Below, piece by piece: positions 27,812-52,776 of a DNA stretch of 64,000 bases. The stretch is taken from positions 1 through 64,000 of the forward strand of contig JAFTFX010000001.1 of NCBI GenBank assembly GCA_017458225.1, read 5' to 3'. Numbering within the stretch: the stretch's first letter is position 1; the number at the start of each line of letters is the position of its first letter. Under the pieces are notes generated by a model. That model did not search any database and was not told the origin of the DNA. It worked only from the letters and a program-made list of their open reading frames with translations. The DNA comes from Prevotella sp. GTDB taxonomy: Bacteria > Bacteroidota > Bacteroidia > Bacteroidales > Bacteroidaceae. The translations under genes were made by a program, and so were the position numbers.

Positions 27812-27965
27812 AAAAGCGGTGGCGGCCTGTCCTCACGGAGGGGCCGCCACCTTACAACTATATTAATTTTACTTTTCGGCCAGCATTCCCGTCCTCACGG
27901 ACACCGCCAGACCGCTAACAAACTGATTAGGCACGCAAGGTGCCAAAAATGAGTTTCAAAAAACT
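27812..27965 (-). other. cassette A conserved 3' element with strong hairpin
   Basis: Starting just after the small-peptide stop codon, the minus strand matches 52610-52776 at most positions. It contains a GGCAC/GTGCC hairpin (27930-27944), a GTCC/GGAC region, and a near-perfect hairpin GGTGGCGGCC...GGCCGCCACC (27818-27851) followed on the minus strand by CGCTTTTG. The last is probably the transcription terminator of the cassette. Confidence 0.7.
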
Positions 27966-27987
27966 ACATTTAATATATCCTTGGAGT

Positions 27988-28164
27988 TTAATCCTCGTCG
28001 CTCCAAAAACCGCCGCGACTGTTCCAACCGCCATCTTTGGTTTCATCGCTTGCATTTTCAACATCAACTGTAAGGTCATAAGTGCCCGGACTACCAGCAA
28101 GCAACTGGAATTGCATATTCAGGTGCATCTCTATGGTGTTGGGGTTCATATATATCTTTTTCAT
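27988..28164 (-). CDS. cassette A small peptide ending FWSDED
   Basis: A 58-residue peptide (MKKIYMNPNTIEMHLNMQFQ then LLAGS) with a Gly/Asp-rich second half ending SRGGFWSDED. It is the counterpart of the cassette-B peptide at 52426-52605: both start MKK-Y-NP, have a hydrophobic middle and end SR(R)GG...FW-DED. It has no convincing signal peptide. It lies 18 nt after the large secreted protein gene, so the two are co-transcribed. Short MKK-Y-NP proteins recur in Prevotella and Bacteroides; the function is unknown. A precursor peptide with a leader-like N-terminus is one possibility. Confidence 0.75.
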   Translation of the reverse strand: MKKIYMNPNTIEMHLNMQFQLLAGSPGTYDLTVDVENASDETKDGGWNSRGGFWSDED

Positions 28165-28182
28165 TGCTTTGTCCTCCTTTGC

Positions 28183-30552
28183 TTATTTTATGATTACTTT
28201 CTTACCATTTAAAATATACAGGCCCTTAGTGGGGGCTGCGACGGACTGTCCCTGTAAATTATAGAAACGAACGTTCTTTTTATCAACATTCACGCTACCA
28301 ATGCCCGTTGCCTCACCATCAAGGCTGTAGAGGGCCAAACGTGCACCAGGAGTCGACGTTGTCAGGTATGCACGGAACGGATTCATCGTGCCGCTGCTGG
28401 CAGTTACAAGATTGCCCGAAGAAGCAAAACCGTAAATAGTGCTGCTGATGGTGCTTGATGCAATGGAGCCGTTAAGTGTTACACCTCCCTCGGTCTGTGC
28501 GGTCACGTCGCCAGCGGCAACGAACTCTGTACAAGCAGGGATCGTGATTGTTCCAGTTGCGGCAGGAACGAACAGATAGGGCTTCAAGGCATCGGTGAAC
28601 TCTACTTCCTCGAACACTACATTGTCGGTCGTAGTTGTGCTCTTCAGCTGATAGAACTTACCCAGCGTGGCAGCGGTCTCTGCATTGATTGCGAAGGGCA
28701 GACAGATGGTGCTTACAACGTCTTTAGTAAAAGAACGGTCGTAGGTTGCAGCTGTTGCTGTGAAGGCGTTAGCAGCGGCATAGTCGTTTGCATCAGTAAG
28801 GGCATAGAGTGCAACGACACCGGTATTCGTGCGCAAGTTGGCAACATCTGCTGTTGTCTCAAAGAAAGAATTTGAGGGTAACTGAATAAACTCGCAGTTA
28901 GTTTTCGATGAGGGTATCATGAAATTAAGCTGAGTTGCTGTAACGCCATAGCCAACATGTCCAATCTTCACACTCTTTACTCCATCAAGTGCTGCTACAG
29001 CTGTAGCTATGGCCTCGATGTTGCCAGTCCAAAGAACTTTCGACGACAAGTCGACGACACCATTTGCATCTTTGACAACATCAGCGACTGTTGCTATGTG
29101 GTTTACTGGAGTATAAATATTATAGTCTCCAAGTCCTTGGTCTGTTCCGTTGCCATATCTGTCACGTGACGGATTAACGTTGTAGGGAGAAGTTAGAGCA
29201 TAACTAAAACTTCCCGATGCAGCTGAAGATTTGAAAGTTCTATATGCAACTACCTGGTTATCCACAGGAATAGCTACTGACCAATAGCCATTACTATTTC
29301 CAGCATAGTACGACAAGCCATAGTCCTTTTTAATAATAAGTTTATCGAATCCACTATTATTAACAAAGTTGATGCTGTTGATATAGCCGTATGCTGCCAT
29401 CCCACTTTCTGCGGTAAGCGAGATCGTCCCATCTGCAAAATCCATCTCTGATGTCATCTTGTATTCATAACTTGTTATTGAAACAGGATCCGAATCATCG
29501 CAGTTTTCCGCAACCGCCTTAACATAATATGTTCCTGCAGGACAAGTAAAGTCTGTACCGTCAATGTCACTCCAGCTTGACTGGTCAGTTGAATACTTGT
29601 ATGATATTGTCACATCGCCATCAATGTTGCTTACGTCTGTAGCCAAAGCAAACTTTTTATAGTAAGAACCACTAGATTCTACCATTGAAGAGAATGTAGC
29701 AGAAGGTGTATTTAGCTTGGGTGCTATAACCTCAAATTCGAATGAAACAACTTCCGACTCGGCACCGCCATCAATATATGAATAAGCATAAATAGTTCCT
29801 GAAGATGTCGGATTCAACACTTCTGTATATGTTGCGCCGTTGGACTTTACATCAGTGGCAGACGTATATGAGTACTTTGTGACAACAGTTCCTGTTCCAT
29901 TGCCTCTAATTGTTCCTGGAGTGATTGTTAATGCGGTGTACCCAACACCTGCGGCTGACGTTATACTTGGTTCTAAGATCGTGGGATTAGCCGTTGTAAT
30001 AGTCATTGAAGTAAGTGTAATTGCTCGGGAACCATAAAAGTCTACTGTTACTACTTCGTCGGCATCAGCAACAACAGTATATTCTGTTCCGCTTGTTAAT
30101 GCTCCTTCGGCAACCACATTCGTAACTACACTTTCAACCAGATATGTAGCATTGGCAGATTTGAACACAACACCATTTGTGGCGCTAAAATTAATCGTGA
30201 ACTTATCACCATTTTTCATGTTGCACAACGAAAAGTATTCATCTCGGTTACCACTTGCTTCTGTATACGAAAATCCTGAATATGGGCGTTCCGTCCAGCT
30301 ATGTTTTGTACTTACAGCCAATCGTTTGAAATAGGTCACAAAGTTGTTTGCGTCGCTCAAAACATACTTCATCGTGACAGTACTAACAGAAGGGTTTGAA
30401 AAGCTCTCCCCAAGTGTTAGGGCATAGTTGGTCTTGTCACTTCCACTTTTGAATGTGTAGGTTTCCGTGACGTCTGCCCACGCATTTGCCCACGTGCACA
30501 GCCCTGCGGCCACGAGGAGCACTCTCATAGATTTGAGTAGTTTCTTTTTCAT
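28183..30552 (-). CDS. cassette A large secreted repeat protein
   Basis: A 789-residue secreted protein. Its signal peptide (MKKKLLKSMRVLLVAAGLC) is almost identical to that of the cassette-B protein, while the bodies are diverged. Internal segments resemble chitobiase/hexosaminidase C-terminal or FN3-like beta domains (TKYSYTSATDVKSNGATYTE, ISYKYSTDQSSWSDIDG). The C-terminus RFYNLQGQSVAAPTKGLYIL then NGKKVIIK resembles the end of type IX secretion sorting domains common in Prevotella surface proteins. No catalytic motif is visible. Surface or extracellular location is likely; ligand unknown. Confidence 0.7.
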   Translation of the reverse strand: MKKKLLKSMRVLLVAAGLCTWANAWADVTETYTFKSGSDKTNYALTLGESFSNPSVSTVTMKYVLSDANNFVTYFKRLAVSTKHSWTERPYSGFSYTEASGNRDEYFSLCNMKNGDKFTINFSATNGVVFKSANATYLVESVVTNVVAEGALTSGTEYTVVADADEVVTVDFYGSRAITLTSMTITTANPTILEPSITSAAGVGYTALTITPGTIRGNGTGTVVTKYSYTSATDVKSNGATYTEVLNPTSSGTIYAYSYIDGGAESEVVSFEFEVIAPKLNTPSATFSSMVESSGSYYKKFALATDVSNIDGDVTISYKYSTDQSSWSDIDGTDFTCPAGTYYVKAVAENCDDSDPVSITSYEYKMTSEMDFADGTISLTAESGMAAYGYINSINFVNNSGFDKLIIKKDYGLSYYAGNSNGYWSVAIPVDNQVVAYRTFKSSAASGSFSYALTSPYNVNPSRDRYGNGTDQGLGDYNIYTPVNHIATVADVVKDANGVVDLSSKVLWTGNIEAIATAVAALDGVKSVKIGHVGYGVTATQLNFMIPSSKTNCEFIQLPSNSFFETTADVANLRTNTGVVALYALTDANDYAAANAFTATAATYDRSFTKDVVSTICLPFAINAETAATLGKFYQLKSTTTTDNVVFEEVEFTDALKPYLFVPAATGTITIPACTEFVAAGDVTAQTEGGVTLNGSIASSTISSTIYGFASSGNLVTASSGTMNPFRAYLTTSTPGARLALYSLDGEATGIGSVNVDKKNVRFYNLQGQSVAAPTKGLYILNGKKVIIK

Positions 30553-30599
30553 TGTTTTTAATTGTTAGTTTAATAGAATTAATAATTTGTATATCCCCT

Positions 30600-30858
30600 C
30601 TGCCTTGGCGGAAACTGGCACAAAAGTGTATATACACAGAAAATGCGCAGACCTGCCATATTTCCTGCCAGGCCTACCACAGCCACAAACTCATTATGGA
30701 AAAGTCTACGCATAATGCGCACACTCCAATATGAGTTTGGTCTTGCTCGTTAAATCCCTTGCGAGGTGGTAGTTCGGCAGGAAAATTGAGCAACAAAAAT
30801 GTCGTGCTCCTTACGACGTTTGGCCTTTATGGGCGCATCGCATGCATAGAAACACGGT
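30600..30858 (-). ncRNA. structured leader RNA of cassette A
   Basis: On the minus strand a long interrupted hairpin forms: TTTCCTGCC (30776-30784) with GGCAGGAAA (30661-30669), then CTACCAC with GTGGTAG (30766-30772 and 30674-30680), then a CAAACTCAT/ATGAGTTTG helix and a GGAGT...GCGCA tip. In cassette B the outer and third helices have different sequence but still pair, which is covariation. A downstream GTCTGCGC (30645-30652) can instead pair with the tip strand GCGTAGAC. It could be a cis leader or a free RNA. Confidence 0.7.
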
Positions 30859-30859
30859 G

Positions 30860-30867
30860 CAAAGGTA
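30860..30867 (-). promoter_or_regulatory. cassette A promoter -7 box
   Basis: The minus strand reads TACCTTTGCACCG, identical to the cassette-B promoter. Similarity to B continues about 290 bp further upstream. Confidence 0.65.
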
Positions 30868-31065
30868 AGAAGATTTTTTCAATCCTCCATCATTTTGAAT
30901 AAGAAAAAATATGCAGATTCTTACAAATTCATATTAAATTCGTATCGTTTGGCACAAAAACGTATGGATTCTTGTAAAAGAGTATTAATCGCAGTACGAA
31001 ATGGGTGCTTTTGCGGTACAACAGCATAGGGATTCTGGTGCAAAGTGTGTTGCTTTTCAACTTTT

Positions 31066-31153
31066 GCTTACAAGCAAAAGGCCATTCGCTTACAAGCAAA
31101 AGGCCATTCGGTTGTAAGCAAACGAGCATTCGCTTACAAGCAAAACCCGTTGA
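31066..31153 (-). repeat. four 22-bp repeats upstream of cassette A
   Basis: Units start at 31066, 31088, 31110 and 31132. The first two are identical over 22 nt and begin GCTTACAAGC, a dyad (GCTT-AC-AAGC); the other two are diverged. The mirror array for cassette B is at 48923-49010. The array lies between the divergent cassette promoter and mntP and may be an operator. Confidence 0.8.
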
Positions 31154-31177
31154 ATGTGTTTTTTGTGCTCCTTTTGC

Positions 31178-31207
31178 TTGGCGTTAAGCATATTTTTTGT
31201 ACTTTTG
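31178..31207 (+). promoter_or_regulatory. mntP promoter
   Basis: TTG (31178-31180) and TACTTTTG (31200-31207) are 19 nt apart; the ATG is at 31234. Confidence 0.6.
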
Positions 31208-31233
31208 CAGCCCAACAGAGGGGCAACAGCACG

Positions 31234-31812
31234 ATGATGGGCATTGTAGACATATTGTTTCTTTCGGTGGCACTGGCCATGGATTGCTTCACGGTGTCCA
31301 TAGTGAGCGGCGTTGTTTTGCGCCGCAGGGTGTGGGCGGTGATGCTGCAGACGGCCGTGCTCTTCGGGCTGTTTCAGGCCGTGATGCCGCTCCTGGGGTG
31401 GCTGGTCACCAGCGGTTTTCAGCAGTACATAGAGGACTACGACCACTGGATAGCCTTTGCCTTGCTGGCGTGGCTGGGCGTAGGCATGATTCGCGAGTCA
31501 AGAAAGCCTGAGGAGGCACCGCACAGCTTTAATCCGCTCAGTCTGCGCACGCAGCTGCTGCAGGCGGTGGCCACCAGTATCGACGCGCTGGCGGTGGGCA
31601 TCTCGATGGCGATGACGGGCTATACCAAGGCAGGACAACTGCTGCTGCCCCTCGTGGTCATAGGCTTGGGCTCTTTCTTCTTCAGCCTCTGGGGCTTCCT
31701 GCTGGGCATCCGCTTCGGTGCCAGTATTCGCCGGCGCTTGCGTCCCGAACTGTTTGGCGGCATCATTCTGCTTGCCATAGGCTTCAAAATTCTGTTTTCC
31801 CACCTATTTTAA
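31234..31812 (+). CDS. mntP: manganese efflux pump MntP
   Basis: A 192-residue inner-membrane protein with six hydrophobic helices that exports Mn2+. The two family repeats are visible: FLSVALAMDCFTVSI near the N-terminus and AVATSIDALAVGISMAM in the second half, each with the conserved Asp in a helix. ATG 31234 (or 31237) follows the promoter; the frame extends upstream only through the repeat array. No manganese riboswitch is recognised in the short leader. Confidence 0.88.
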   Translation: MMGIVDILFLSVALAMDCFTVSIVSGVVLRRRVWAVMLQTAVLFGLFQAVMPLLGWLVTSGFQQYIEDYDHWIAFALLAWLGVGMIRESRKPEEAPHSFNPLSLRTQLLQAVATSIDALAVGISMAMTGYTKAGQLLLPLVVIGLGSFFFSLWGFLLGIRFGASIRRRLRPELFGGIILLAIGFKILFSHLF

Positions 31813-31842
31813 TTATTAGAGAAAAAATATTGCAGAAAAAAC

Positions 31843-31873
31843 TTTGCTGATTGACTGAAATGTTGTACCTTTG
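31843..31873 (+). promoter_or_regulatory. infC operon promoter
   Basis: TTTG (31843-31846) and TACCTTTG (31866-31873) are 19 nt apart, 24 nt before the infC ATG. Confidence 0.7.
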
Positions 31874-31897
31874 CAGCCGATTTTCGAAAATTAGTTA

Positions 31898-32608
31898 ATG
31901 AAACCCGACAAAAAACAGAATCAGTATCGTATCAACGAACAGATACGAGTGCGCGAGGTCCGCATTGTAGGTGAGAGCGGATCATCGGTAATTCCTACAA
32001 GAGAAGCATTGGACATGGCTCGTCAGCAGGGTGTAGACCTTGTTGAGATTTCACCGAATGCCAATCCGCCTGTTTGTCGACTCATCGACTATTCGAAATT
32101 TCTCTACCAGCAGAAAAAGCGTGCTAAGGAAATGAAAGCCAAGCAGGTGAAGGTGGAGGTGAAGGAAATTCGTTTCGGGCCACAGACCGACGAACACGAC
32201 TATCAGTTCAAGCTGAAGCATGCCAAGGAGTTCCTGGAAGAGGGCAACAAAGTGCGTGCGTACGTGTTCTTCCGTGGCAGAAGTATTCTCTTCAAAGAGC
32301 AGGGCGAGGTGCTGCTGTTGCGTTTCGCCAACGATCTGGAAGAGTGCGGCAAGGTGGAGTCGATGCCTTCGCTCGAAGGAAAGAAGATGTTCCTCTACCT
32401 GGCACCGAAGAAAGCCGGTGTTGCCAAGAAGAGCCAGCAGGCCCGCGACCGTGAGGCCAACGAGGCTGAAATGAAGGAGAACGCCAAACTGCAGAAGCAG
32501 GAGGCTGTTGCCGACATAGATGTCGAGATGCCGGCAAATGGCGGACTCTTCGCCAATGCCAAGATCAGTGCCGATGCACTGAAGAAGCTGACGGAAGAGG
32601 CTGAATGA
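31898..32608 (+). CDS. infC: translation initiation factor IF-3
   Basis: IF-3 binds the 30S subunit and keeps it free for initiation. The N-domain [19 protein letters not shown] and the linker [20 protein letters not shown] are present, followed by the C-domain with [20 protein letters not shown] and [10 protein letters not shown]. At 236 residues it is longer than the 180-residue standard because of a Lys/Glu-rich C-terminal extension after [13 protein letters not shown], usual in Bacteroidetes. It heads the infC-rpmI-rplT operon. Confidence 0.95.
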
Positions 32609-32682
32609 GAAAAAAAGGTGCGCTGCGCCCGGTATATGCGTTGCCACCGCTTTATTAATAACAAATTAAACAAAACAAAACA

Positions 32683-32880
32683 ATGCCAAAAGTAAAGACA
32701 AACTCCGGTGCAAAGAAAAGATTTGCTTTCACTGGTACAGGTAAGGTTAAGAGACATCACGCTTACCACAGCCACATTCTGACCAAGAAGACCAAGAAGC
32801 AGAAGCGCAACTTGGTAGGCTACACCATCGTTGACAACACCAACATGAAGCAGGTTCGCGACCTGTTGTGTCTCCGTTAA
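32683..32880 (+). CDS. rpmI: 50S ribosomal protein L35
   Basis: A 65-residue basic ribosomal protein with the family start MPKVKTNSGAKKRF and the HAYHSHILTKKTKKQKRNL core. It lies between infC and rplT, the standard arrangement. Confidence 0.96.
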   Translation: MPKVKTNSGAKKRFAFTGTGKVKRHHAYHSHILTKKTKKQKRNLVGYTIVDNTNMKQVRDLLCLR

Positions 32881-32919
32881 TTAACCCTATTGTCTAACAT
32901 TTAAAGAAGTAAGAAAACT

Positions 32920-33270
32920 ATGCCAAGATCAGTAAATCACGTTGCATCACGCGCAAAACGTAAGAGAATTCTGAAGCTCACTCGCGGCTACTTTGGTGCC
33001 CGCAAGAATGTATGGACAGTAGCCAAGAACACATGGGAGAAGGGTCTGACCTACGCCTATCGTGACCGCCGCAACAAGAAGCGCAACTTCCGCGCACTGT
33101 GGATTCAGCGTATCAATGCTGCCGCTCGTCTGGAGGGCATGAGCTACTCGAAGCTGATGGGTGCTCTGGCAAAGGCCGGCATCGAGATCAACCGCAAGGT
33201 GCTCGCTGACCTCGCCCTGAACAACCCCGAGGCTTTCAAGGCCATCGTTGCAAAGGTTGCGGGCAAGTGA
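32920..33270 (+). CDS. rplT: 50S ribosomal protein L20
   Basis: A 116-residue assembly-initiating 23S rRNA-binding protein ([54 protein letters not shown]). L20 represses its own operon in several bacteria. A perfect 22-nt palindrome and a terminator follow the stop codon. Confidence 0.97.
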
Positions 33271-33273
33271 GCG

Positions 33274-33295
33274 AAGTGCGAATGCATTCGCACTT
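33274..33295. repeat. 22-nt perfect palindrome after rplT
   Basis: AAGTGCGAATG followed by its exact complement CATTCGCACTT, starting 3 nt after the rplT stop. A small GAGCC-gta-GGCTC hairpin follows at 33314-33326. Confidence 0.6.
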
Positions 33296-33356
33296 CCGAG
33301 CGTAAGCAACTTCGAGCCGTAGGCTCAAGGTGAAGTAAACAACAAAAGAGCATAAA

Positions 33357-33393
33357 AAGGCTGCGCATCGTAATTGATTGCGCAGCCTTTTTT
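33357..33393 (+). terminator. intrinsic terminator of the infC operon
   Basis: AAAGGCTGCGCA pairs with TGCGCAGCCTTT, followed by a T run. It is A-rich on the left, so it can also serve the convergent minus-strand gene. Confidence 0.88.
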
Positions 33394-33430
33394 GTCTCTA
33401 TTCGTAAATTATTTATCCACTCTTCATTTC

Positions 33431-33871
33431 CTAAAAGCGCCACCAGGGTTTCTTCTTGGGATGGGCATCCTCGTAGGAAGTCAGGGAGGCACTCTTCACC
33501 TCTTCGTCAATCAAGTCGTTCCACGTCTTGTGGCGCGTCACCATGCGATAGATAGTGCCCCAGTCGGGCAGTCCTCCCAGGTTGCGGTCGTCAATCCACA
33601 CGTCGGCCTTGAGCTTGCGGCTGAAGTGGTTGTTGTTCTCTGGTCGTTCCTCGGGGTAGTCGTGATTGACGGCATAGAACTCGACACCGCGCTCGCGACA
33701 CCAGTTGACGGCATCTTCCAGATAGCGGCCCTCGCGTACCGTCCACAAGATAAGCCGATGATGCTCATTGATGAGCATCTTCAGCGTATCTGTGGCGAAA
33801 GGTATCTCCGGTCCTATCTCCGGATATCGGTCTTCAACGATGGTCCCGTCGAAATCAATTCCTATTGTCAT
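33431..33871 (-). CDS. HAD-superfamily hydrolase
   Basis: A 146-residue protein with the HAD motif I IGIDFDGTIVED, motif II-like LILWTVREGR, and a late VWIDDRNLGG acidic motif IV. It belongs to a short HAD group common in Bacteroidetes, without a cap domain. It starts 3 nt after the Wzc-like kinase gene and is last in the rfbA-wzc-HAD operon, so a link to exopolysaccharide production is possible but unproven. Confidence 0.75.
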   Translation of the reverse strand: MTIGIDFDGTIVEDRYPEIGPEIPFATDTLKMLINEHHRLILWTVREGRYLEDAVNWCRERGVEFYAVNHDYPEERPENNNHFSRKLKADVWIDDRNLGGLPDWGTIYRMVTRHKTWNDLIDEEVKSASLTSYEDAHPKKKPWWRF

Positions 33872-33874
33872 TGT

Positions 33875-36409: not shown

Positions 36410-36444
36410 ATATAAATAATGTATTTTTAGTAGTTGAATCCAGG

Positions 36445-43368: not shown

Positions 43369-43408
43369 TATTCGATCATTGAGAATTGATAATTGAAAAT
43401 TGGCAATT

Positions 43409-44569: not shown

Positions 44570-44571
44570 TT

Positions 44572-45636
44572 ATGGAACTGGAATTAGCACCACTGAACTT
44601 ACCGAGTGACAATGAACGTCCCTTCGTGATTGCCGGCCCCTGCTCGGCTGAGACCGAAGAGCAAGTGATGACCACCGCCCTGCAGCTGGCCATGAAGGGC
44701 TGCCACAACTTCCGCGCCGGCGTGTGGAAGCCGCGCACCAAGCCCGGCGGCTTTGAAGGCAATGGCGAGAAAGCCCTGCCCTGGCTGGAACGGGTGAAGA
44801 AGGAGACTGGCATGCTGGTCTCTACCGAAGTGGCTACCCCCGAGCATGTAGAACTTGCCTTGAAGTATGGCATCGACATTCTGTGGATTGGAGCCCGCAC
44901 AAGTGCTAATCCCTTTGCCATGCAGGCTTTGGCTGACTCACTGAAAGGTGTCGACGTGCCCGTCTTCGTGAAGAACCCCGTGAATCCCGATCTTGAGCTC
45001 TGGATTGGAGCCTTGGAGCGCATCAATCAGGCAGGCATCAAGCGTCTGGGTGCCATCCATCGCGGCTTCTCCAGCTATGACAAGAAAATCTATCGCAACC
45101 TGCCCATGTGGCAGATACCCATTGAGTTGCACCGCCGCATTCCCGATCTGCCCATCATCAGCGACCCCTCTCATATCGGCGGTCGTCGCGAACTCATCGC
45201 ACCGCTGTGCCAGCAGGCCATGGACTTGGGCTTCGACGGTCTGATTGTTGAGAGCCACTGCGAGCCAGACAAGGCCTGGAGCGATGCAGCCCAACAGGTG
45301 ACGCCCGATGTGCTCGACTATATCCTGTCGCTGCTGGTTATTCGCGATGAGCACGTGACGACGGAAGACATTCAGCAGTTGCGCAAGCAGATTGACGAAC
45401 TGGACAATCAGCTGATGGACCTCCTGGCTAAGCGCATGCGCGTATGCCGCGAAATCGGCCAGTACAAGAAAGAGCACAACATGACCGTGCTGCAGGCCAA
45501 CCGCTACAGTGAGATTCTCTCCAAGCGCGGTGCCCAGGGTGCACTGTGCGGCATGGGAGCCGAGTTTGTGGCTCATGTATTTGAAAGCATTCATGAAGAG
45601 TCGGTGCGTCAACAAATGGAGATTATTAACAAGTAG
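44572..45636 (+). CDS. bifunctional DAHP synthase / chorismate mutase
   Basis: A 354-residue fusion. Residues 1-260 are a type I-beta 3-deoxy-7-phosphoheptulonate synthase (FVIAGPCSAETEEQV, GVWKPRTKPGGFEG, IWIGARTSANPF, SDPSHIGGRR, VESHCEPDKAWSDA), the entry step of the shikimate pathway. After about residue 265 an AroQ-type chorismate mutase follows (LRKQIDELDNQLMDLLAKRM, IGQYKKEHN). The order is opposite to the mutase-first fusions of Bacillus and typical of Bacteroidetes. It starts 2 nt after the aminotransferase gene. Confidence 0.93.
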   Translation: MELELAPLNLPSDNERPFVIAGPCSAETEEQVMTTALQLAMKGCHNFRAGVWKPRTKPGGFEGNGEKALPWLERVKKETGMLVSTEVATPEHVELALKYGIDILWIGARTSANPFAMQALADSLKGVDVPVFVKNPVNPDLELWIGALERINQAGIKRLGAIHRGFSSYDKKIYRNLPMWQIPIELHRRIPDLPIISDPSHIGGRRELIAPLCQQAMDLGFDGLIVESHCEPDKAWSDAAQQVTPDVLDYILSLLVIRDEHVTTEDIQQLRKQIDELDNQLMDLLAKRMRVCREIGQYKKEHNMTVLQANRYSEILSKRGAQGALCGMGAEFVAHVFESIHEESVRQQMEIINK

Positions 45637-45638
45637 AA

Positions 45639-45781
45639 GACTCTCCCCCGACCCCTCCCTGTGAGGGAAGGGAGTAGTTTGTTCTGCTGCTAAATAGATA
45701 ATATACCAACAAATGAAGTAGATATTTCCCCGTTAAAACTATCTACTCCCCTCCCTCACAGGGAGGGGTTGGGGGAGAGTC
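45639..45781. repeat. long imperfect palindrome, MITE-like, before tyrA
   Basis: Arms at 45639-45677 and 45743-45781 begin GACTCTCCCCC and end GGGGGAGAGTC; they pair over about 38 nt with few mismatches around an AT-rich 65-nt centre. Such GC-rich palindromes recur between genes in Bacteroidetes. It interrupts the aromatic operon between the DAHP synthase and tyrA genes. Confidence 0.75.
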
Positions 45782-45785
45782 TGTT

Positions 45786-46580
45786 ATGAAAATATTAGTC
45801 ATGGGCGCAGGCAAGATGGGGAGTTTCTTCATCGACCTGCTGAGCTTCGACCACGAAGTGGCCGTCTACGAGAAAGATGCGAAGCGCATGCGCTTCACCT
45901 ATAACTGTCAGCGTTTCACCGATTTGGAAGAGGTGCGCACGTTCCAGCCTGAGCTGGTCATCAACGCCGTCACGCTGAAGTACACCATCCCCGTGTTCCG
46001 CGAGCTGATACCCTATCTGCCCAAGGAGTGCATCATCAGCGATATAGCCTCGGTGAAGACCGACCTGAAGGAATTCTACGAGTCGACGGGTATGCGCTAT
46101 GTGTCCACGCACCCCATGTTCGGTCCTACGTTTGCCAACCTGCAGCAGCTCTCCGAGGAGAATGCCATCATCATCAGCGAGGGCGACTATATGGGGCGTA
46201 TCTTCTTCAAGGACCTCTACCAGAAGCTGGGCCTGAACATCTACGAGTACACCTTTGAGGAGCACGACAAGACGGTGGCCTATTCGCTCTCCATCCCCTT
46301 CGTCTCGACCTTCGTCTTTGCGGCCGTCATGAAGCATCAGGACGCGCCGGGCACCACCTTCAAGCGCCACATGCGCATTGCCAAGGGCGTGCTCAACGAG
46401 GACGACTACCTGCTGCAAGAGATACTCTTCAACCCCTACACCCACGATCAAGTGTCGCAAATTCGCACCGAGCTGAAGGAACTCCTTGAGATTATCGACC
46501 ACAAGGATGCCGATGGCATGAAGGGCTACTTGACGAAGATTCGCGACAATGTGCGCCGCGACATTGAGATTAAGAAGTGA
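45786..46580 (+). CDS. tyrA: prephenate dehydrogenase
   Basis: A 264-residue NAD-dependent enzyme converting prephenate to 4-hydroxyphenylpyruvate. The Rossmann loop is MGAGKMGSFFIDLL, followed by ISDIASVKTDLKEF and the catalytic-site STHPMFGPT, with H-D-x-x-V near LSIPFVSTFVF. Slightly short and without an ACT domain. It ends in a 4-nt overlap with the transporter gene and closes the pheA-tyrA cluster. Confidence 0.9.
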   Translation: MKILVMGAGKMGSFFIDLLSFDHEVAVYEKDAKRMRFTYNCQRFTDLEEVRTFQPELVINAVTLKYTIPVFRELIPYLPKECIISDIASVKTDLKEFYESTGMRYVSTHPMFGPTFANLQQLSEENAIIISEGDYMGRIFFKDLYQKLGLNIYEYTFEEHDKTVAYSLSIPFVSTFVFAAVMKHQDAPGTTFKRHMRIAKGVLNEDDYLLQEILFNPYTHDQVSQIRTELKELLEIIDHKDADGMKGYLTKIRDNVRRDIEIKK

Positions 46581-47497
46581 AGAGTGAGAACTTCCTGTAC
46601 CACGTAGTGGCTTTTGTGACTGTAGCCATCTGGGGCAGCACGTTCGTGTTTACGAAACTGCTGCTCCTCAATGGTTTGTCGCCTGCCCAGATTTTCACGC
46701 TTCGCTTCCTGATTGCCTATGTGCTGCTGTCGGGCTATGAGCTTTTGTTCCTGCGCCGTCATCATCGCTGGTTGGCTGACAGCTGGCGCGACGAGCTGCT
46801 GATGCTGTTGCTGGGCGTGACGGGCGGTTCACTCTATTTCCTGACCGAGAACGAAGCCCTGAACTACACCGCCACCACCAATGTCTCGCTTATTGTCTGT
46901 TCGTGTCCGCTGGTGGCAGCATTGCTCATAGGCCTGTTCTATCGGTCGCAGCGCATGCGCCCCCTGCAGATTGTCGGAACGCTGATGGCAGCCTGCGGCG
47001 TGGCTATGGTGGTGCTCAACGGCCATTTTGTGCTCCATCTGTCGCCGGTGGGCGACGCGCTGGCGCTGACGGCCAATGTCTGCTGGGCGGTCTATTCGCT
47101 GCTGATGATTCCAGCCAACAAGCGCTACAGTGCCGTGTTCGTCACACGCAAAGTGTTCTTCTACGGTCTTCTCACCATGATTCCCTATTATGTGTTGCGC
47201 CCTGCCGAACTGCCCCTCGCGTTGGGAGGCGAACTGAATCTTGCCGTACTGCTGCGTCCGCAGGTCGTGGGCAACCTCCTGTTCCTCGGCGTGGTGGCTT
47301 CGTGCATCTGCTTCCTGGTGTGGACATGGGTGATGGACAAGCTTGGAGCACTCATTGCCACCAACTATGTCTACGTCAATCCGCTCAGCACCATCGTTGT
47401 GGCCAGCTTGGTGCTCAACGAGCAGATCACGGCCTTCTTCCTGCTGGGTGCCCTGCTCATTCTGGCAGGAATGGCACTTGCCGACCGAAAACGATAG
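46577..47497 (+). CDS. EamA/DMT-family transporter
   Basis: A 306-residue inner-membrane protein with ten hydrophobic segments and two EamA repeats (AIWGSTFVFTKLLLLNGLSP at the start, ALTANVCWAVYSLLM in the middle, NPLSTIVVASLVLNEQ near the end). Members export amino acids or other metabolites. The GTG start overlapping the tyrA stop indicates translational coupling, so export of an aromatic compound is conceivable, but the substrate is unknown. Confidence 0.82.
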   Translation: MKSENFLYHVVAFVTVAIWGSTFVFTKLLLLNGLSPAQIFTLRFLIAYVLLSGYELLFLRRHHRWLADSWRDELLMLLLGVTGGSLYFLTENEALNYTATTNVSLIVCSCPLVAALLIGLFYRSQRMRPLQIVGTLMAACGVAMVVLNGHFVLHLSPVGDALALTANVCWAVYSLLMIPANKRYSAVFVTRKVFFYGLLTMIPYYVLRPAELPLALGGELNLAVLLRPQVVGNLLFLGVVASCICFLVWTWVMDKLGALIATNYVYVNPLSTIVVASLVLNEQITAFFLLGALLILAGMALADRKR

Positions 47498-47537
47498 AAA
47501 ACACAGAATAATTTTCGTGTTTCTGTTTTTTTCTTTG

Positions 47538-47545
47538 TACCTTTG
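47538..47545 (+). promoter_or_regulatory. -7 box for the DnaJ-domain gene
   Basis: TACCTTTG, 24 nt before the ATG at 47570. Confidence 0.6.
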
Positions 47546-47569
47546 CGGCCAATTAACGTCAATTTGATT

Positions 47570-48343
47570 ATGAAAACATCAACTTGGATTGGAGGCTTCC
47601 TCGGCTGGATTGTTCTGGGGCCTATCGGTGCAGCCATCGGGGCATGGATAGGTTCAATGATAGGGGAAGACGACAACAACGGGTCTTTCAGTGGCAACAA
47701 TGCCTATTCCACCATAGGCGGCCCTGCAGAAGAGGGCAATCGCAACAGCTTCCTTATGTCGATGCTGGTGCTGGCCTCTTACATCATCAAGGCCGACGGC
47801 CGCATCATGCACTCCGAGATGGAACTGGTGCGCCAGTGGCTGCGTGCCAACTTCGGCGAGGTGGCCGTGCAGCAAGGCGACCAGATTCTTCGCCGTCTGT
47901 TCGAGGCCTCCAAGTTGCAAGGCGAGGCCAGATATCGCCAGAACATCAAGGATGCCTGTCTGCAAATCAGCATGAACATGGACTATAGCGAGCGTCTGCA
48001 GCTGCTGGGCTTCCTGGTGATGATTGCCCAGGCCGACGGAGTGGTCGATGCCACTGAAGTCGCTGCCCTGAAGGAGGTGGCCGAGTGGATGCAGGTGTCG
48101 GCCGACGAGATCGACACCATGCTGAACCTGGGTCACGACGACCTGGAGTCGGCCTATAAGGTGCTGGGCGTTTCGCCCGAGGCTACCGACGACGACTTGC
48201 GCCGTGCCTATCGCCGTTTGGCCCTTGAGCACCATCCCGACCGTGTGGCTGCGCTGGGCGAAGACGTGCGCAGGGCTGCAGAAAAGAAGTTCCAAGAAAT
48301 CAACGATGCCAAAGAGCGTATTTGGAAAGCCCGAGGACTGTAG
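47570..48343 (+). CDS. DjlA-like TerB/DnaJ-domain protein
   Basis: A 257-residue protein with a glycine-rich membrane-inserting N-terminus (WIGGFLGWIVLGPIGAAIGA), a TerB-like helical domain (residues about 60-180, MLVLASYIIKADGRIMHSEM) and a C-terminal J domain from about 195 with ALEHHPDRVAAL carrying the HPD motif. This is the DjlA layout, a membrane J-protein that stimulates DnaK. ATG 47570 is chosen because the upstream frame crosses the promoter. Confidence 0.85.
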   Translation: MKTSTWIGGFLGWIVLGPIGAAIGAWIGSMIGEDDNNGSFSGNNAYSTIGGPAEEGNRNSFLMSMLVLASYIIKADGRIMHSEMELVRQWLRANFGEVAVQQGDQILRRLFEASKLQGEARYRQNIKDACLQISMNMDYSERLQLLGFLVMIAQADGVVDATEVAALKEVAEWMQVSADEIDTMLNLGHDDLESAYKVLGVSPEATDDDLRRAYRRLALEHHPDRVAALGEDVRRAAEKKFQEINDAKERIWKARGL

Positions 48344-48884
48344 TGAAGTGCTGCTGCATGCCTGTTGCGCTCCCTGCTCATCTGCCATTGTTGAATGGCT
48401 GATGCAGCATGAGGTGCGTCCCACCATATTCTATTATAACCCCAACATCTGGCCGCTTGAGGAATACGAAATCCGCAAGCAGGAGAGCAAGCGCCATGCC
48501 GAATCGTTAGGCATCCGCTGGATTGACGGCGACTACGACCACGAACAGTGGCGTTGCGACGTGAGCGGCATGGAGAACGAGCCTGAACGAGGGGCCCGCT
48601 GTGAGCTCTGCTTCCGCTTGCGGCTGCTGGCCACAGCACGGAAAGCCCAGGAGTTGGGCATCCGCTACTTCGCCACCACGCTGGCCTCCAGTCGCTGGAA
48701 AAGTCTGGAACAAATCAGCCAAGCCGGTCTCGCTGCACAGGAAGCCGTGCCCGGAACGGAGTTCTGGGCGCAGAACTGGCGCAAGGGTGGCCTGCAAGAC
48801 CGCCGCAACCAGTTGCTCCGTGAGTACAATTTCTACAACCAGCAATACTGCGGCTGCGAGTTCTCAGCACGCAGCAGGACCTGA
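48306..48884 (+). CDS. queH: epoxyqueuosine reductase QueH
   Basis: A 192-residue enzyme of queuosine tRNA modification, replacing QueG. The N-terminal LLHACCAPCSSA motif, the YYNPNIWPLEEYEIRK segment, RCELCFRLRL and the C-terminal QQYCGCEFS supply cysteines that ligate an iron-sulfur cluster. ATG 48306 overlaps the DnaJ-domain gene by 38 nt in another frame; GTG 48348 is an alternative start. Confidence 0.88.
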   Translation: MPKSVFGKPEDCSEVLLHACCAPCSSAIVEWLMQHEVRPTIFYYNPNIWPLEEYEIRKQESKRHAESLGIRWIDGDYDHEQWRCDVSGMENEPERGARCELCFRLRLLATARKAQELGIRYFATTLASSRWKSLEQISQAGLAAQEAVPGTEFWAQNWRKGGLQDRRNQLLREYNFYNQQYCGCEFSARSRT

Positions 48885-48922
48885 TATTGTCATTCCTTGT
48901 GACTACAGAGTAACGAGCTTTT

Positions 48923-49010
48923 GCTTGTAAGCAGATGATCGTTTGCTTGTAACTGAATGGCCTTTTGCTTGTAAGCGAATGGCCTTTTGCTTGTAAGCAA
49001 AAGCTGAAAA
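48923..49010 (+). repeat. four 22-bp repeats upstream of cassette B
   Basis: GCTTGTAAGC or close variants begin at 48923, 48945, 48967 and 48989, exactly 22 bp apart and reverse-complementary to the array at 31066-31153. Each core is a GCTT-nn-AAGC dyad, degraded in the second unit. Confidence 0.8.
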
Positions 49011-49197
49011 GCAATACACTTTGCACCAGAATCCCTATGCTGTTGTACCGCAAAAGCACCCATATCGTACTGCGATTAATACTCTTTTATAAGAATCCAT
49101 ACGTTTTTGTGCCAAACGATACGAATTTAATATGAATTTGTAAGAATCTGCATATTTTTTCTCATTCAAAATGATGGGGGATTGAAAAAAAATTTCT

Positions 49198-49205
49198 TAC
49201 CTTTG
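49198..49205 (+). promoter_or_regulatory. cassette B promoter -7 box
   Basis: TACCTTTGCACCG, as in cassette A. About 190 bp of conserved AT-rich sequence separate it from the repeat array. Confidence 0.65.
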
Positions 49206-49429
49206 CACCGTGTTTCTATGCATGCGATGCGCCCATAAAGGCCAAACGTCGTAAGGAACACGACATTTTTGTTGCTCAAACCTCTGACACGAACTACCAC
49301 CTCGAATCAAGAGTTATTATGGGCAAAACCTAATCCAGTTTGGAGTATGCGCTTAATGCGCAGACTTCCATAATGGATTAGAGGCTGTGGTAGGCCTGTG
49401 TCAGAGTATGGACGGGTCTGCGCTTTTTT
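49206..49429 (+). ncRNA. structured leader RNA of cassette B
   Basis: After a GTCGT/ACGAC hairpin, a long interrupted stem forms: CTCTGACAC (49282-49290) with GTGTCAGAG (49398-49406), CTACCAC with GTGGTAG (49294-49300, 49387-49393), CTAATCCA with TGGATTAG (49330-49337, 49374-49381), and a GGAGT..TGCGC/GCGCA..ACTTCC tip. GTCTGCGC (49416-49423) followed by six T can pair with GCGCAGAC (49358-49365) as a terminator that competes with the tip helix. This suggests attenuation, or a discrete small RNA of about 220 nt. Confidence 0.72.
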
Positions 49430-49606
49430 GTGTTTATACACTTCTGCGCCAGTTTCCGCCACGACGATGAGGCAGAGAGAAGAACCATTTGATTAAGCGA
49501 GAGCAAAACAAGTGGGCTTGTTTTGCCGAGCGTGAAAATGGTCGAATGAAATTCAACGTATAACAACTACTAATAGCTCTAATTTTTAATCAAAACAAAA
49601 AAAGCA

Positions 49607-52342
49607 ATGAAAAAGAAACTACTCAATTCTATGAGAGTGCTCCTCGTCGCAGCAGGGCTGTGCGTGGGGGCAAGTGAATCATGGGCAGACTGGACTACGG
49701 TCTATTCCAATGACTACACAAATGCGAGTACCTATGATGCTGGTTGGACCAATGGCAATTCTGGACGAATATCATGGGGACAATGGTCAAGACCTGACCT
49801 AGCGGAGTCTGTTACAGATAAAACAGCTATGCGCGTATATATGAATAGTTCAAGCAACGGATCTTCTGCCACTTTCAATGGTTTGTCATCGGTTTCTGCC
49901 TATACCTCATCAGAACAGTATAAGATAGAATTTGATTTTGGACTTACAAGAGGAACAAACCAAAACCCCTCATTTGTGATATACGCCAGTGATAATAGCA
50001 CCGTTCTTGTCACTTTCCAGGCTACCACTTCTGCAGGAAAGAGAACATTCACTACAAAGGCAGGTAATGAAGGTACTTTCTACAGTGCGTCAGAAGTATA
50101 CAATTCTTTTAACTTAACAGATAACTCTCCTGCTGTTTTCAACCATGTCGTTATTGAGGCTGATGGAACAAATGGAACAAAAATCACGGTGAGTAGTGAT
50201 GGTGGTGGTACCGAAGCCAATGTCGTTGCCGAACATACTGTAGCTATTGATGCCAGTATGCTATATGTGGGAAAGATGGTCTACAATACGGGAAGATATA
50301 ACTCTAACTTCGCTATCGATAATCTGACCGTTAGCATCTACTCTGACACGGAGATTGTTCCTAACCCATCGGCAGCCATAACGGGTGTAGATGGATCTGA
50401 TCGCACTGTGACAATGACGCTTGGCACTGGTTCGTCGGAAGGTTCAGTTGTCAAATACTATACAGACGCGGATAACAAATCTGATCTTACGACCTATAGT
50501 GCACCGTTTACGGTTTCTTCTTCTTCAACCATATATTATTATACAGAATCTACTTCTGGTGCTACATCGGAAGTGCAAAGCATTGACGTAACCTGCGAGG
50601 CTCTTACACTCCATGCTCCAACGTTTAGTCGAAATGGCAATACCGTGACTATCACTTCAGACCAATCAGATTTGGATGCTTCGCCGATAGCTACCATATA
50701 TTATAAATACAACAGTGATAATTTTGCAGTTTACAACGATGCTCTAACCGTTACAGCCGATGCTACAATTACTGCATATACCGCTTACGACGGCTACACG
50801 CAGTCCTCTAATGTTACACGCGCCGTTGCTCTTCTTCCTACAGCAGGAGTTACCCAAATAGAGAACTCGCCATATACAACAGATTATTCTTCAAGTGCAT
50901 TTAGTGACGAAACAACAACCACAGATAAAGCTACATACGCAGCTTTAAATCTCACCAAGAACGAGACCACGACTCAATGGGGTACTAATGTTTATCTTCA
51001 GACCACTGGTTGGGGTATCAGAAATAATGGCGGATGGTACACCAATTCTGCATCTTCGGTATGGATTCTGATGAAGAGTATGAAAGCTGGCGATATCATC
51101 ATTGCACAACTTTCAAAGGCTGCCAGTGGAACTGTGAATGCGACTTATTCCGAAAAGTATTCTCGTGATGGTTACCATGCATATATAGTTGATGCTGATG
51201 GTGACGTTGAACTTGGATTTACACGCGTAAGCAGTAAGGACAACAATTACTTCAGTGGTATATATGCCTACACACACAATGTAACAGGTACACAGGTTGG
51301 TGCTTTTGACAATACTACCGAGTACATGGCTGCTACCAGTGAGAAGGTAACACTGAAACCTGGCGAGAGCTATCACTACAACTTCAAGAATTACAATTCA
51401 GGAGGCAATGGTAACTGGAACAATTTCTTGCTGGCTGCCTACGACGGCAGCGACAATGTAAAAGCTGTTGTTCGTGCCGACAACTTCGAGGTGATAGACT
51501 GGAAAAACACGGGTTGCACTAATGACTTCAACTGGACGAACTTTGTCAGCAAGATGAATGGTGCCACCGTTGATATGACCGTTAGCTATTCTGCAAGCAA
51601 TGTGCTCAGCATGGCTGCAACAATCACCACTAATGAGGAAACGCCGTCTACTTGGAGCTATTCCTACACTTCAGACTATACAGGTTCTGGTATTTCGTTG
51701 AGCGGTGATATCAAGATTGCTCTTTCTGTCGACCATGCTTGGTTGGATATTATTTCTGAGGGTAAGGGCAGCATTGCAACAACCATCACCTCTGCTGGTT
51801 GGGCAACTCTCTACACTCCGTATGCCCTTGACTTCTCTTCACTGAGCGAAGACCTGACAGCTTACACCGCCACCTGCTCTGAGAGCACTGTCACGCTGAC
51901 GAAGGTGAACAATGTGCCTGCTAGCACTGGCGTAGTGCTGAAAGGTGCAGCCAACACCTACAACATTCCTGTGATTGCCAGCTCTGAGACCGCCAAGGGT
52001 CATCTGCTTGGCTCGGCTACAGAGGCTACAGCCTACGATGCCTACACGGGCTATACCCTCTACATGCTGAAGATGGTGGGCGAGAATGCTCAGTTCGTGC
52101 CTATGAAGAGCGGCAGTCTGGCTGCCGGCAAGGCATACCTGAAGATTGCAAGCGGCAATTCTTCGCTGGCCCGCAGCCTGAACGTGGTGTTCGCCGACGA
52201 GGCCACTGGCATCCAGACGGTGCAGAGTGAAGGAGTTGCAGTTGATGGCTACTACAACCTCAGCGGCCAGCGCGTGAGCCAGCCCACGAAGGGACTCTAC
52301 ATTGTGAACGGAAAGAAGGTTCTTGTCAATGACAAGCGGTAA
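49607..52342 (+). CDS. cassette B large secreted repeat protein
   Basis: A 911-residue secreted protein, paralogue of the cassette-A protein. The signal peptide (MKKKLLNSMRVLLVAAGLC) and C-terminal tail (YYNLSGQRVSQPTKGLYIV then NGKKVLVN) match, while the body differs. The N-terminal part looks like a concanavalin/LamG-type beta sandwich (YKIEFDFGLTRGTNQNPSFV...FAIDNLTVSIY), followed by chitobiase-like repeats (VVKYYTDADNKSDLTTYSAP, TIYYKYNSDNFAVYNDA). Ser/Thr/Tyr-rich, with no catalytic motif recognised. The 5' UTR after the RNA element is about 110 nt longer than in A and includes an AAAACAAG/CTTGTTTT hairpin. Confidence 0.7.
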   Translation: MKKKLLNSMRVLLVAAGLCVGASESWADWTTVYSNDYTNASTYDAGWTNGNSGRISWGQWSRPDLAESVTDKTAMRVYMNSSSNGSSATFNGLSSVSAYTSSEQYKIEFDFGLTRGTNQNPSFVIYASDNSTVLVTFQATTSAGKRTFTTKAGNEGTFYSASEVYNSFNLTDNSPAVFNHVVIEADGTNGTKITVSSDGGGTEANVVAEHTVAIDASMLYVGKMVYNTGRYNSNFAIDNLTVSIYSDTEIVPNPSAAITGVDGSDRTVTMTLGTGSSEGSVVKYYTDADNKSDLTTYSAPFTVSSSSTIYYYTESTSGATSEVQSIDVTCEALTLHAPTFSRNGNTVTITSDQSDLDASPIATIYYKYNSDNFAVYNDALTVTADATITAYTAYDGYTQSSNVTRAVALLPTAGVTQIENSPYTTDYSSSAFSDETTTTDKATYAALNLTKNETTTQWGTNVYLQTTGWGIRNNGGWYTNSASSVWILMKSMKAGDIIIAQLSKAASGTVNATYSEKYSRDGYHAYIVDADGDVELGFTRVSSKDNNYFSGIYAYTHNVTGTQVGAFDNTTEYMAATSEKVTLKPGESYHYNFKNYNSGGNGNWNNFLLAAYDGSDNVKAVVRADNFEVIDWKNTGCTNDFNWTNFVSKMNGATVDMTVSYSASNVLSMAATITTNEETPSTWSYSYTSDYTGSGISLSGDIKIALSVDHAWLDIISEGKGSIATTITSAGWATLYTPYALDFSSLSEDLTAYTATCSESTVTLTKVNNVPASTGVVLKGAANTYNIPVIASSETAKGHLLGSATEATAYDAYTGYTLYMLKMVGENAQFVPMKSGSLAAGKAYLKIASGNSSLARSLNVVFADEATGIQTVQSEGVAVDGYYNLSGQRVSQPTKGLYIVNGKKVLVNDKR

Positions 52343-52425
52343 ACCGAGCAATCGTGAACTAATTCATGAGTAATTCATGGACATTTATGGTAATTCATGT
52401 TTAACAACAAAAAAGAAACAGAACA

Positions 52426-52605
52426 ATGAAAAAGACATATCAGAATCCTGAAATGAAGATTGTAAAGGTGCAGATGGCACAGATGATTGCCGTATCCAAC
52501 CCCGAAGGCTTCAACGGAGGCCTCGGTGGTGACGGCGATGGTGGCAGTGGCGACGAAGGACTCAGCCGTCGTGGCGGCGGTTCCTTCTGGGACGACGAGG
52601 ACTAA
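52426..52605 (+). CDS. cassette B small peptide ending FWDDED
   Basis: A 59-residue peptide starting MKKTYQNPEMKIVKVQ, with MIAVSNPEG, then a Gly/Asp-rich stretch (GGLGGDGDGGSGDEG) and the end SRRGGGSFWDDED. The cassette-A peptide shares the start and end but not the middle. It lies 83 nt after the large protein. The N-terminal half resembles a leader and the C-terminal half a variable, acidic core, but no processing enzyme is visible nearby. Confidence 0.78.
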   Translation: MKKTYQNPEMKIVKVQMAQMIAVSNPEGFNGGLGGDGDGGSGDEGLSRRGGGSFWDDED

Positions 52606-52609
52606 CCTC

Positions 52610-52776
52610 CACGATATACGAAATGTAGTTTTTAACTCATTTTGAGGCACCTTGCGTGCCCAATTAGTTTGTTAGCGGCTTGGCGGTGTCCGTGAGGATG
52701 GGAACGTCGGCCGGAAATAGAATTAATATAGTTGTAAGGTGGCGGCCCCTCCGTGAGGACAGACCGCCACCGCTGT
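52610..52776 (+). other. cassette B conserved 3' element with strong hairpin
   Basis: About 165 nt matching the minus strand of 27812-27965. It contains GGCAC...GTGCC, TCCGTGAGGA and a GGTGGCGGCC...GACCGCCACC hairpin (52738-52771), the probable cassette terminator. Confidence 0.7.

Follow-up and report, generated by a model that had tools for sequence, protein, structure and literature searches.

Two regions of a 64,000-nt stretch of a Prevotella sp. genome (contig JAFTFX010000001.1, assembly GCA_017458225.1; hereafter the window) carry the same kinds of elements on opposite strands, which raises the question of whether their repeats, RNA, secreted protein and peptide form a single selected system, and of what the RNA in front of each protein gene does.

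Two cassettes with a shared part order

The identical part order claimed for the two loci is borne out: all of the listed parts were located at both A, on the minus strand, and B, on the plus strand. The window holds three copies of the leader RNA, of which the third precedes an exported-protein gene that differs from the A and B cargo.

31061..31146, minus: cassette A, four-unit array of 22-bp GCTTGTAAGC-type repeats of a dispersed family, one unit with a changed arm
30868..31060, minus: upstream stretch A, from the alignment with B
30860..30867, minus: TACCTTTG promoter -7 element A
30636..30799, minus: leader RNA core A (PK1, P1, P2, P3, P4/PK2, U-run); R1 175.1 bits, fold z and covariation
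28183..30552, minus: exported protein A, 789 aa, signal peptide and putative short T9SS-type C-terminal signal
27988..28164, minus: peptide A, 58 aa, ending in FWSDED
27812..27987, minus: 3′ element A with terminator-like hairpin
48918..49003, plus: repeat array B
49004..49197, plus: upstream stretch B
49198..49205, plus: TACCTTTG promoter -7 element B
49266..49431, plus: leader RNA core B; R1 168.7 bits, fold z
49607..52342, plus: exported protein B, 911 aa, signal peptide and putative short T9SS-type C-terminal signal
52426..52605, plus: peptide B, 59 aa, ending in FWDDED
52606..52774, plus: 3′ element B with terminator-like hairpin
57735..57742, minus: TACTTTTG promoter element of the third RNA copy
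57551..57707, minus: third leader RNA copy; R1 E 6.7e-15, R2 E 2.4e-20
56311..57486, minus: exported protein behind the third RNA, 391 aa, signal peptide; no peptide-profile match nearby

Counted over aligned bases, A and B are identical at 79/86 positions of the repeats, 186/194 of the upstream stretch up to the promoter, 80/81 of the promoter and 5′ hairpin, 21/23 of the PK2 strand with the U-run, and 153/170 of the 3′ element, compared with 83/176 for the peptide gene. The proteins are diverged homologues, as the sequence-only reading had proposed, with 115/384 identical columns at the start and 48/140 at the end. One correction to it concerns the RNA core (90/123), which is not among the best-conserved parts. 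Because seven of the nine base pairs of the P1 helix are changed on both sides between A and B and yet remain paired, we group the core with the variable block. We suggest that A and B arose by duplication: their outer flanks would have remained similar, and the intervening block, RNA core through peptide, would have diverged or been exchanged.

A structured leader RNA with covarying helices

The RNA had been described as structured, and both copies fold more stably than their shuffled counterparts (A, z -4.75; B, z -5.68; 0/200 shuffles as good for each); across the family, covariation is strong. In the core of ~160 nt, the helices P1, P2 and P3 follow one another directly, their internal loops are conserved, and P4 forms an apical hairpin; in addition, a pseudoknot (PK1) between UUGCUC and GAGCAA joins the 5′ end to the P2-P3 loop. 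In an alignment fitted to the model, with the structure taken from copy B, 93.5% of P1-P4 cells are paired (63.6% when shuffled), 726 cells are altered on both sides (219 when shuffled), and the score of 0.774 compares with a maximum of 0.103 when slid.

The evidence for PK1 is more modest. A free search without an anchor rule is weak, with 272/5000 permutations scoring as high, and PK1 was therefore tested with anchors, which took in 44 of 72 sequences (23 were ambiguous and the remainder lacked anchors); here the non-anchor position is paired in 43/44, compared with 32.8 when permuted (0/5000). The same anchored test is borderline in the pattern-selected set (86/90 versus 84.1, 281/5000). 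The bulge next to P2 contains a Y-R pair in 73/74 sequences, 24 of the 73 being U-G; the neighbouring pair, in a poorly aligned part, is present in only 39/74. Combined, the pseudoknot pairs are paired in 76.2% compared with 73.9% when shuffled (0/500 as high), an effect far below that of P1-P4. A competing pairing between the 5′ strand of P1 and the P2-P3 loop was rejected, the native value equalling those for swapped or permuted strands.

Mutually exclusive helices followed by a U-run

One strand of the core has two exclusive partners: it closes the local hairpin P4, or it pairs with a downstream strand to form PK2, which is followed by a U-run. PK2 comprises ~10 bp between the 3′ strand of P4 and the strand just after P1, and its native pairing of 9.32 exceeds the permuted 8.25 (0/5000). 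The 8-bp part is paired in 93.5% of cells, whereas the CCAUA-UAUGG extension, which is poorly aligned, is paired in only ~34–37%. When the whole core is folded without pseudoknots, P4 appears in 166 of 174 sequences and PK2 in one; when the 3′ part is folded in isolation, PK2 appears in 166/174. The 8 nt after PK2 contain on average 5.5 U. Upstream, a TAnnTTTG promoter precedes 158/173 RNA copies, as opposed to 318/3480 background windows. By computation, the RNA is a conserved structured 5′ mRNA leader with exclusive helices and a U-run after one of them, as in an attenuator. Among intrinsic terminators the PK2 stem would nevertheless be unusual, since it would close a ~40-nt loop containing the 3′ strands of P1-P3.

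A new RNA family before exported-protein genes

The leader RNA is best read as a new cis-acting family of Bacteroidales, found in 146/299 genomes of the genus, about half of those sampled, in 101/301 at the family level and in 26/393 at the order level, 15 of the latter strongly. Its named carriers include Prevotella communis E15-14 and Segatella copri iAQ1173. A scan of the three copies against the 4227 families of Rfam 15 (E up to 5) gave no credible match, the sole hit being a chance match of SNORD98 at B (E 2, 16 bits against a cut-off of 50). A pattern scan, which selects for UUGCUCA, yielded at least 118 loci, 105 of which are matched by the model; a further 40 extra and 20 high-scoring loci were picked by hand from the genus and family match lists, and parsing lost 8/135 sequences in one set and 2/74 in another. 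Among virus contigs the pattern matched two, neither of them matched by the model at 1e-4.

The 140 model matches represent 137 distinct copies, from which 14 near a contig end and 10 with no ORF within 330 nt were removed to leave 113. The start codon lies a median of 70 nt past the RNA, and the core ends ahead of it in all but 2/113 copies. By a crude signal-peptide rule devised in this analysis and applied alike to both sides, 89/113 downstream genes pass and 24/113 fail; among complete ORFs with a minimum length of 200 aa, 43/56 downstream genes pass compared with 92/297 other ORFs (Fisher P 2.6e-10), or 42/56 and 82/297 when the first start codon alone is used. In a second sample the rule is passed by 33/39 genes at the family level and by 8/13 at the order level, where 5/13 fail. 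All seven copies in the own genome precede exported-protein genes or remnants of such genes. The compiled set of downstream proteins comprised 102, as 4 of the 113 were under 90 aa and 7 were doubtful ORFs. No pathway shared by the downstream genes was found from which a ligand could be named.

Secreted cargo paired with a W-acidic peptide

From their sequences, the A and B proteins resemble cargo of the type IX secretion system that carries a short C-terminal signal. Each has a signal peptide and, judged by eye against the motif text of PMC11969387, the C-terminal motifs B, D and E; the Prevotella intermedia short-CTD cargo presented in the main text of that paper share Y..G (motif B) and GxYI (motif D) in their tails, as well as the basic end (motif E) with T/GI before it. 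The tails match nothing in Pfam and NCBIfam at E up to 1, assignment of the proteins to known families was likewise rejected, and the genome encodes the PorU sortase (855 bits, cut-off 420).

The tail-bearing protein and the peptide are a real unit: in the own genome, a peptide gene stands behind a tail-bearing protein gene at 23/23 places, of which only two are preceded by the leader RNA. Searched with 13 own-genome members, the W-acidic peptide matches no known family in Pfam, NCBIfam or PADLOC and no PDB sequence, a weak match to Gp10_D3 (E 0.003) reaching 18.2 bits against a cut-off of 27. The terms 'peptide downstream' and 'small protein' are absent from the main text of PMC11969387, and the novelty here lies in the gene for the partner peptide.

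The cassette is not one indivisible system

Cassettes A and B are real, yet they do not constitute one indivisible system. The sequence-only reading saw RNA, repeats and peptide as a selected framework for variable cargo, and its view holds insofar as RNA, short-tail protein and W-acidic peptide recur together at 7 of 20 chosen high-scoring RNA loci in other genomes, a sample biased towards A/B-like copies in which two of the seven come from near-identical genomes. In a mostly pattern-derived set of 64 loci, each spanning 3500 nt or more and having a complete ORF, the three occur together at two; the expectation that all RNA matches would frame a secreted protein plus peptide fails at the other 62, which have no peptide. 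Likewise, the other five of the seven own-genome RNA copies have no peptide, and 21/23 peptide loci have no RNA. Matches to the 22-bp repeat number 30 and are spread over 14 places, of which 12 lie away from A and B; the repeat is absent from the 500 nt upstream of the 20 foreign RNA loci. The full 3′ element occurs in the own genome at A and B only. RNA, repeats and peptide thus mostly occur apart, the very finding set beforehand as refuting the framework, and they are not one selected framework. We accordingly regard a single framework of repeats, RNA, peptide and 3′ element as very improbable, and we give still less credence to a plain duplication with the RNA copied along as passive sequence: the upstream stretch and promoter region are indeed 96–99% identical between A and B, but the RNA core is conserved at the level of structure over an order, and the changed P1 pairs have kept their pairing.

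Discussion

Taken as a whole, the observations are best explained, with a probability of roughly 55%, by a new leader RNA that acts as a transcription attenuator, mostly before exported-protein genes. Transcription would begin just past the TAnnTTTG promoter, so that a short 5′ hairpin is made and then the core. Whenever the domain of P1-P2-P3-PK1, possibly in combination with a ligand or protein, tips the balance towards PK2 with its U-run, RNA polymerase would stop; if P4 is held instead, the gene behind would be transcribed. In cassettes A and B, the unit under control would be a two-gene operon of short-signal type IX cargo and W-acidic microprotein, and the latter, found in the own genome only behind such cargo, may help cargo secretion or anchoring. 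A broader version, in which the RNA is an order-wide orphan riboswitch-like class that places unrelated exported genes under one envelope or secretion signal, with the A/B microprotein as a T9SS accessory, is one we entertain only tentatively.

The association with exported proteins, the fairly constant distance to the start codon and the compact pseudoknot that PK2 would form with P1-P3 could also reflect a leader that acts after transcription, on mRNA translation, stability or membrane targeting, with the U-run strand part of a static pseudoknotted fold. We consider this rather doubtful, as a U-run right after PK2 together with the exclusivity of P4 and PK2 is the usual attenuator layout, and almost every copy of the core stops short of the start codon. 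Nor do the variable helices appear to be guides to their own mRNA: across 162 loci, pairing of P1, P2 and the mid-core with the next 200 nt does not exceed that of permuted controls. The promoter motif and U-run, along with the ten copies that lack a nearby ORF, would also suit a free small RNA that ends at the U-run, the gene behind being read by leakage or from elsewhere; this is unlikely given that the downstream gene mostly lies within a narrow range of distances, that the choice of gene is biased, and that all seven own-genome copies are followed by exported-protein genes or their remnants.

An attenuating leader of this type has much in common with riboswitches and other attenuating leaders (Rfam cis-reg), namely the 5′ leader position, a close upstream promoter motif, a pseudoknotted receptor-like domain, exclusive helices, a U-run before the gene and many copies before different genes; it differs in the lack of a credible Rfam match for three copies and in a terminator that would be a long-range pairing. 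To our knowledge, the c-di-GMP leaders of exported proteins are the nearest class by gene content, and few regulatory RNAs are known from Prevotella and its relatives. Bacteroidales-1, Bacteroides-1 and Bacteroid-trp RNAs come from the same order or phylum (PMC2864571) and are included in Rfam; none was matched in the Rfam scans of the three copies. The 3161 candidate structured RNAs predicted from human microbiomes (PMC8040213) come from mining the RNAs of gut bacteria, Bacteroidetes among them, and could contain fragments of the leader RNA; in the main text, on which this comparison is based, Prevotella is mentioned once, in connection with RNAs near uvrC. No description of the RNA or the peptide was found among the listed titles and abstract openings of a literature in which few subscription journals were covered.

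That a tiny protein so strictly accompanies type IX cargo suggests that this secretion system has a partner not yet on record. Both the leader RNA and the cargo peptide resemble regulators or partners of protein export that have escaped study. The leader RNA in particular would offer a direct route to how gut and rumen bacteria choose their surface proteins.

Conserved and variable parts of the paired cassettes

The sequence-only reading had proposed that the mirror-image cassettes A (31153–27812, minus strand) and B (48923–52776, plus strand) share the same parts in identical order, and every part was found when the sequences were read directly and then aligned. Identity is high in the four 22-bp repeats (79/86 aligned bases), the upstream stretch (186/194), the promoter with the 5' hairpin (80/81) and the 3' element (153/170). 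The intervening parts are the core of the leader RNA (90/123), the PK2 strand with the U-run (21/23), the stretch leading to the start codon (58/86) and the peptide gene (83/176). The cassette proteins are identical in 115 of 384 aligned columns towards the N-terminus and in 48 of 140 at the C-terminus. Along the alignment, the outer flanks are thus alike and the block from the RNA core to the peptide has diverged. The RNA core sits within this variable block rather than in the conserved framework proposed by the sequence-only reading.

Distribution of the leader RNA

The family, pairings and gene associations of the leader RNA were established computationally. With the leader of A as query, two relatives beyond B were found in the window's own genome (E 6e-8 and 0.06), and a covariance model built from these four copies (R1) retrieved seven copies there, all with E <= 1.2e-8. 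One lies in the window, where a SAM-I-IV riboswitch is also present:

57551–57707, minus strand: third leader RNA copy, matched by R1 and preceding the gene of a 391-aa exported protein
6440–6553, plus strand: SAM-I-IV riboswitch (51.3 bits)

Three leader RNA copies compared with Rfam 15 gave no credible match. At a threshold of 1e-4, R1 matched 146 of 299 genomes in the genus and 101 of 301 in the family, the latter spread over 13 of 30 genera, and a refined model used at order level (R2) matched 26 of 393 genomes. Fifteen of these 26 are strong (E < 1e-12): the window's own genome and 14 genomes that belong to nine other families. Chance may account for the remaining 11 (E 1e-7 to 4e-5). A DNA pattern located at least 118 stretches in named genomes, mostly of Prevotella, Prevotellaceae, Bacteroidaceae or Bacteroidales of ruminant guts. 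A model match was present in 105 of the 118 listed and absent from five listed stretches titled Chloroflexi, Lachnospiraceae, Clostridiales, Colwellia and plain Bacteroidetes. Among the named carriers, those whose titles do not mark them as metagenome bins comprise Prevotella communis E15-14, Segatella copri iAQ1173 and Prevotella sp. tc2-28.

Structure and switch-like layout of the leader RNA

The top-ranked pairs in a column-pair scan of 89 sequences, in an alignment pre-fitted to R1, corresponded to helices P1, P2, P3 and P4. Over 74 distinct rows of the alignment of leader RNA copies, standard pairs occupy 93.5% of cells compared with 63.6% after shuffling, 726 cells compared with 219 are changed on both sides, and the covariation score reaches 0.774 compared with at most 0.103 when partners are slid, counts that are biased by the fitted alignment and the B-derived structure. 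Within P1, both sides differ between A and B in seven of nine pairs, yet pairing is complete. The pyrimidine of the GGY located in the bulge by P2 pairs with the purine of RCC in 73 of 74 rows, 24 of these as U-G.

Pseudoknot PK1 joins UUGCUC with GAGCAA, and 43 of 44 sequences pair (through UA, AU, UG and GC pairs) in a test whose anchors exclude the tested position, compared with 32.8 when permuted (0/5000). The anchored test is borderline in the pattern-selected set (86/90 versus 84.1, 281/5000), and a free search without anchors gave a weak signal, with 272 of 5000 permutations as high. When the pseudoknot pairs are pooled, 76.2% are paired compared with 73.9% after shuffling (0/500 as high).

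The layout of the leader is switch-like. The 3' strand of P4 also pairs with a strand directly after P1 to form PK2 (native mean 9.32 versus 8.25 permuted, 0/5000; 9.45 versus 8.13 in the pattern set), and the 3' arm of P4 makes up most of the PK2 5' strand in 171 of 174 copies. Under nested folding of the whole core, 166 of 174 copies form P4 and one forms PK2; when the 3' part is folded alone, 166 of 174 form PK2. The 8-bp part of PK2 is paired in 93.5% of cells, the CCAUA-UAUGG extension in only about 34–37%, and directly 3' of PK2 lies the U-run, with a mean of 5.5 U per 8 nt. A TAnnTTTG promoter element is located within 140 nt upstream in 158 of 173 copies, compared with 318 of 3480 random windows from the same loci, at a median of 27 nt from the core.

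Genes downstream of the leader RNA

Reading into a downstream ORF was possible for 113 of 137 distinct matches (median distance 70 nt), and 89 of the 113 ORFs pass a strict, home-made signal-peptide rule applied identically to background ORFs. When only complete ORFs of 200 aa or more are counted, 43 of 56 pass compared with 92 of 297 other ORFs at the same loci (Fisher P 2.6e-10). Where loci were taken from model matches instead of the pattern, the rule is passed by 33 of 39 in the family and by 8 of 13 in the order; two and four such loci, respectively, have no ORF. The downstream proteins are varied: BspA-type leucine-rich repeats are present in 11 of 102, a small number are beta-barrels or Ig-like, and each of the remaining families listed has a small membership. 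Two order-level copies (L317 and L300) lie upstream of a putative EcoRI-type DNA methylase gene.

In the window's own genome, all seven copies lie upstream of exported-protein genes, as judged by eye, two of which are broken. On sequence C13 (locus L249, about 2264–2560), the RNA is upstream of a lipoprotein gene that is interrupted by an in-frame stop. On C19 (L250, about 2915–3270), it is followed by approximately the first 17 codons of a paralogue of the window gene 56311–57486, which is then interrupted by a GCTTGTAAGC repeat array. Since ACATTCAACG is found at this junction of gene and array and also precedes the array at A, the repeat arrays may be located at recombination joints.

Secreted proteins and the associated peptide

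The secreted, putative cargo proteins end in tails of the form YNLxGQRVxxPxxGLYIVNGKKV. These resemble the short C-terminal signals reported for Prevotella intermedia proteins exported by type IX secretion (PMC11969387), including, in A and B, the T/GI that precedes the tail. General tail models gave no match for A and B. The window's own genome contains PorU (855 bits) and 12 Por_Secre_tail matches, six of them above the cut-off.

The W-acidic microprotein encoded behind the cargo, which ends FWSDED in A and FWDDED in B, has no good match in Pfam, NCBIfam, PADLOC or PDB sequences. A profile built from 13 own-genome peptides has 23 members in that genome and, over 40 genomes, matches 20 of 24 from the same genus and 0 of 16 others. 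All 23 own-genome peptide genes lie 4–103 nt behind an ORF whose product carries such a tail (one tail being weaker and one ORF only 159 aa). In other genomes, 16 of 28 follow a tail protein as defined by a fixed expression, and approximately six more seem by eye to follow divergent tails. At L208, L216 and L231, the protein before the peptide has a seemingly rearranged tail, with an NGK-like part ahead of an NxAGQxxK-like end.

Association of the parts and proposed function

The cassette proposal was borne out in part, but RNA, repeats and peptide do not form a single framework. The trio of RNA, cargo and peptide recurs, in 7 of 20 foreign loci that we chose as high scorers (two of the seven from near-identical genomes) and in 2 of 64 complete downstream genes, but the RNA, peptide and repeats are mostly found separately. 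Of the 64 complete RNA-led genes, 62 have no peptide, and 21 of the 23 own-genome peptides have no RNA. For the 22-bp repeat, the own genome yielded 30 matches distributed over 14 places (reversed control, 3). Five of these matches belong to A and B, and a search of the 500 nt preceding each of the 20 foreign leader RNA loci gave none. Repeat arrays are also observed 3' of other peptide genes in the own genome (C35:140405–140447 and C42:26323–26387). In the own genome, the full 3' element was found at A and B only, and its terminator-like hairpin alone is found at other genes:

27087–27110 of the window: hairpin copy
C13:13780–13813: hairpin copy
C13:15179–15212: hairpin copy

The literature searched contained no account of the leader RNA or the peptide, but the 3161 microbiome RNA candidates of PMC8040213 may include fragments of this RNA.

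We take the leader RNA to be a probable transcription attenuator, in which P1-P2-P3 together with PK1 would form the receptor domain; its transcription, the attenuation, the signal and the role of the peptide are what we infer. The main rival explanation is that the leader acts on translation or on the fate of the mRNA. When the variable helices were compared with the mRNA that follows, no pairing between them was found. With the leader as an attenuator, A and B would represent two operons under its control, each encoding a type IX cargo and its partner peptide.
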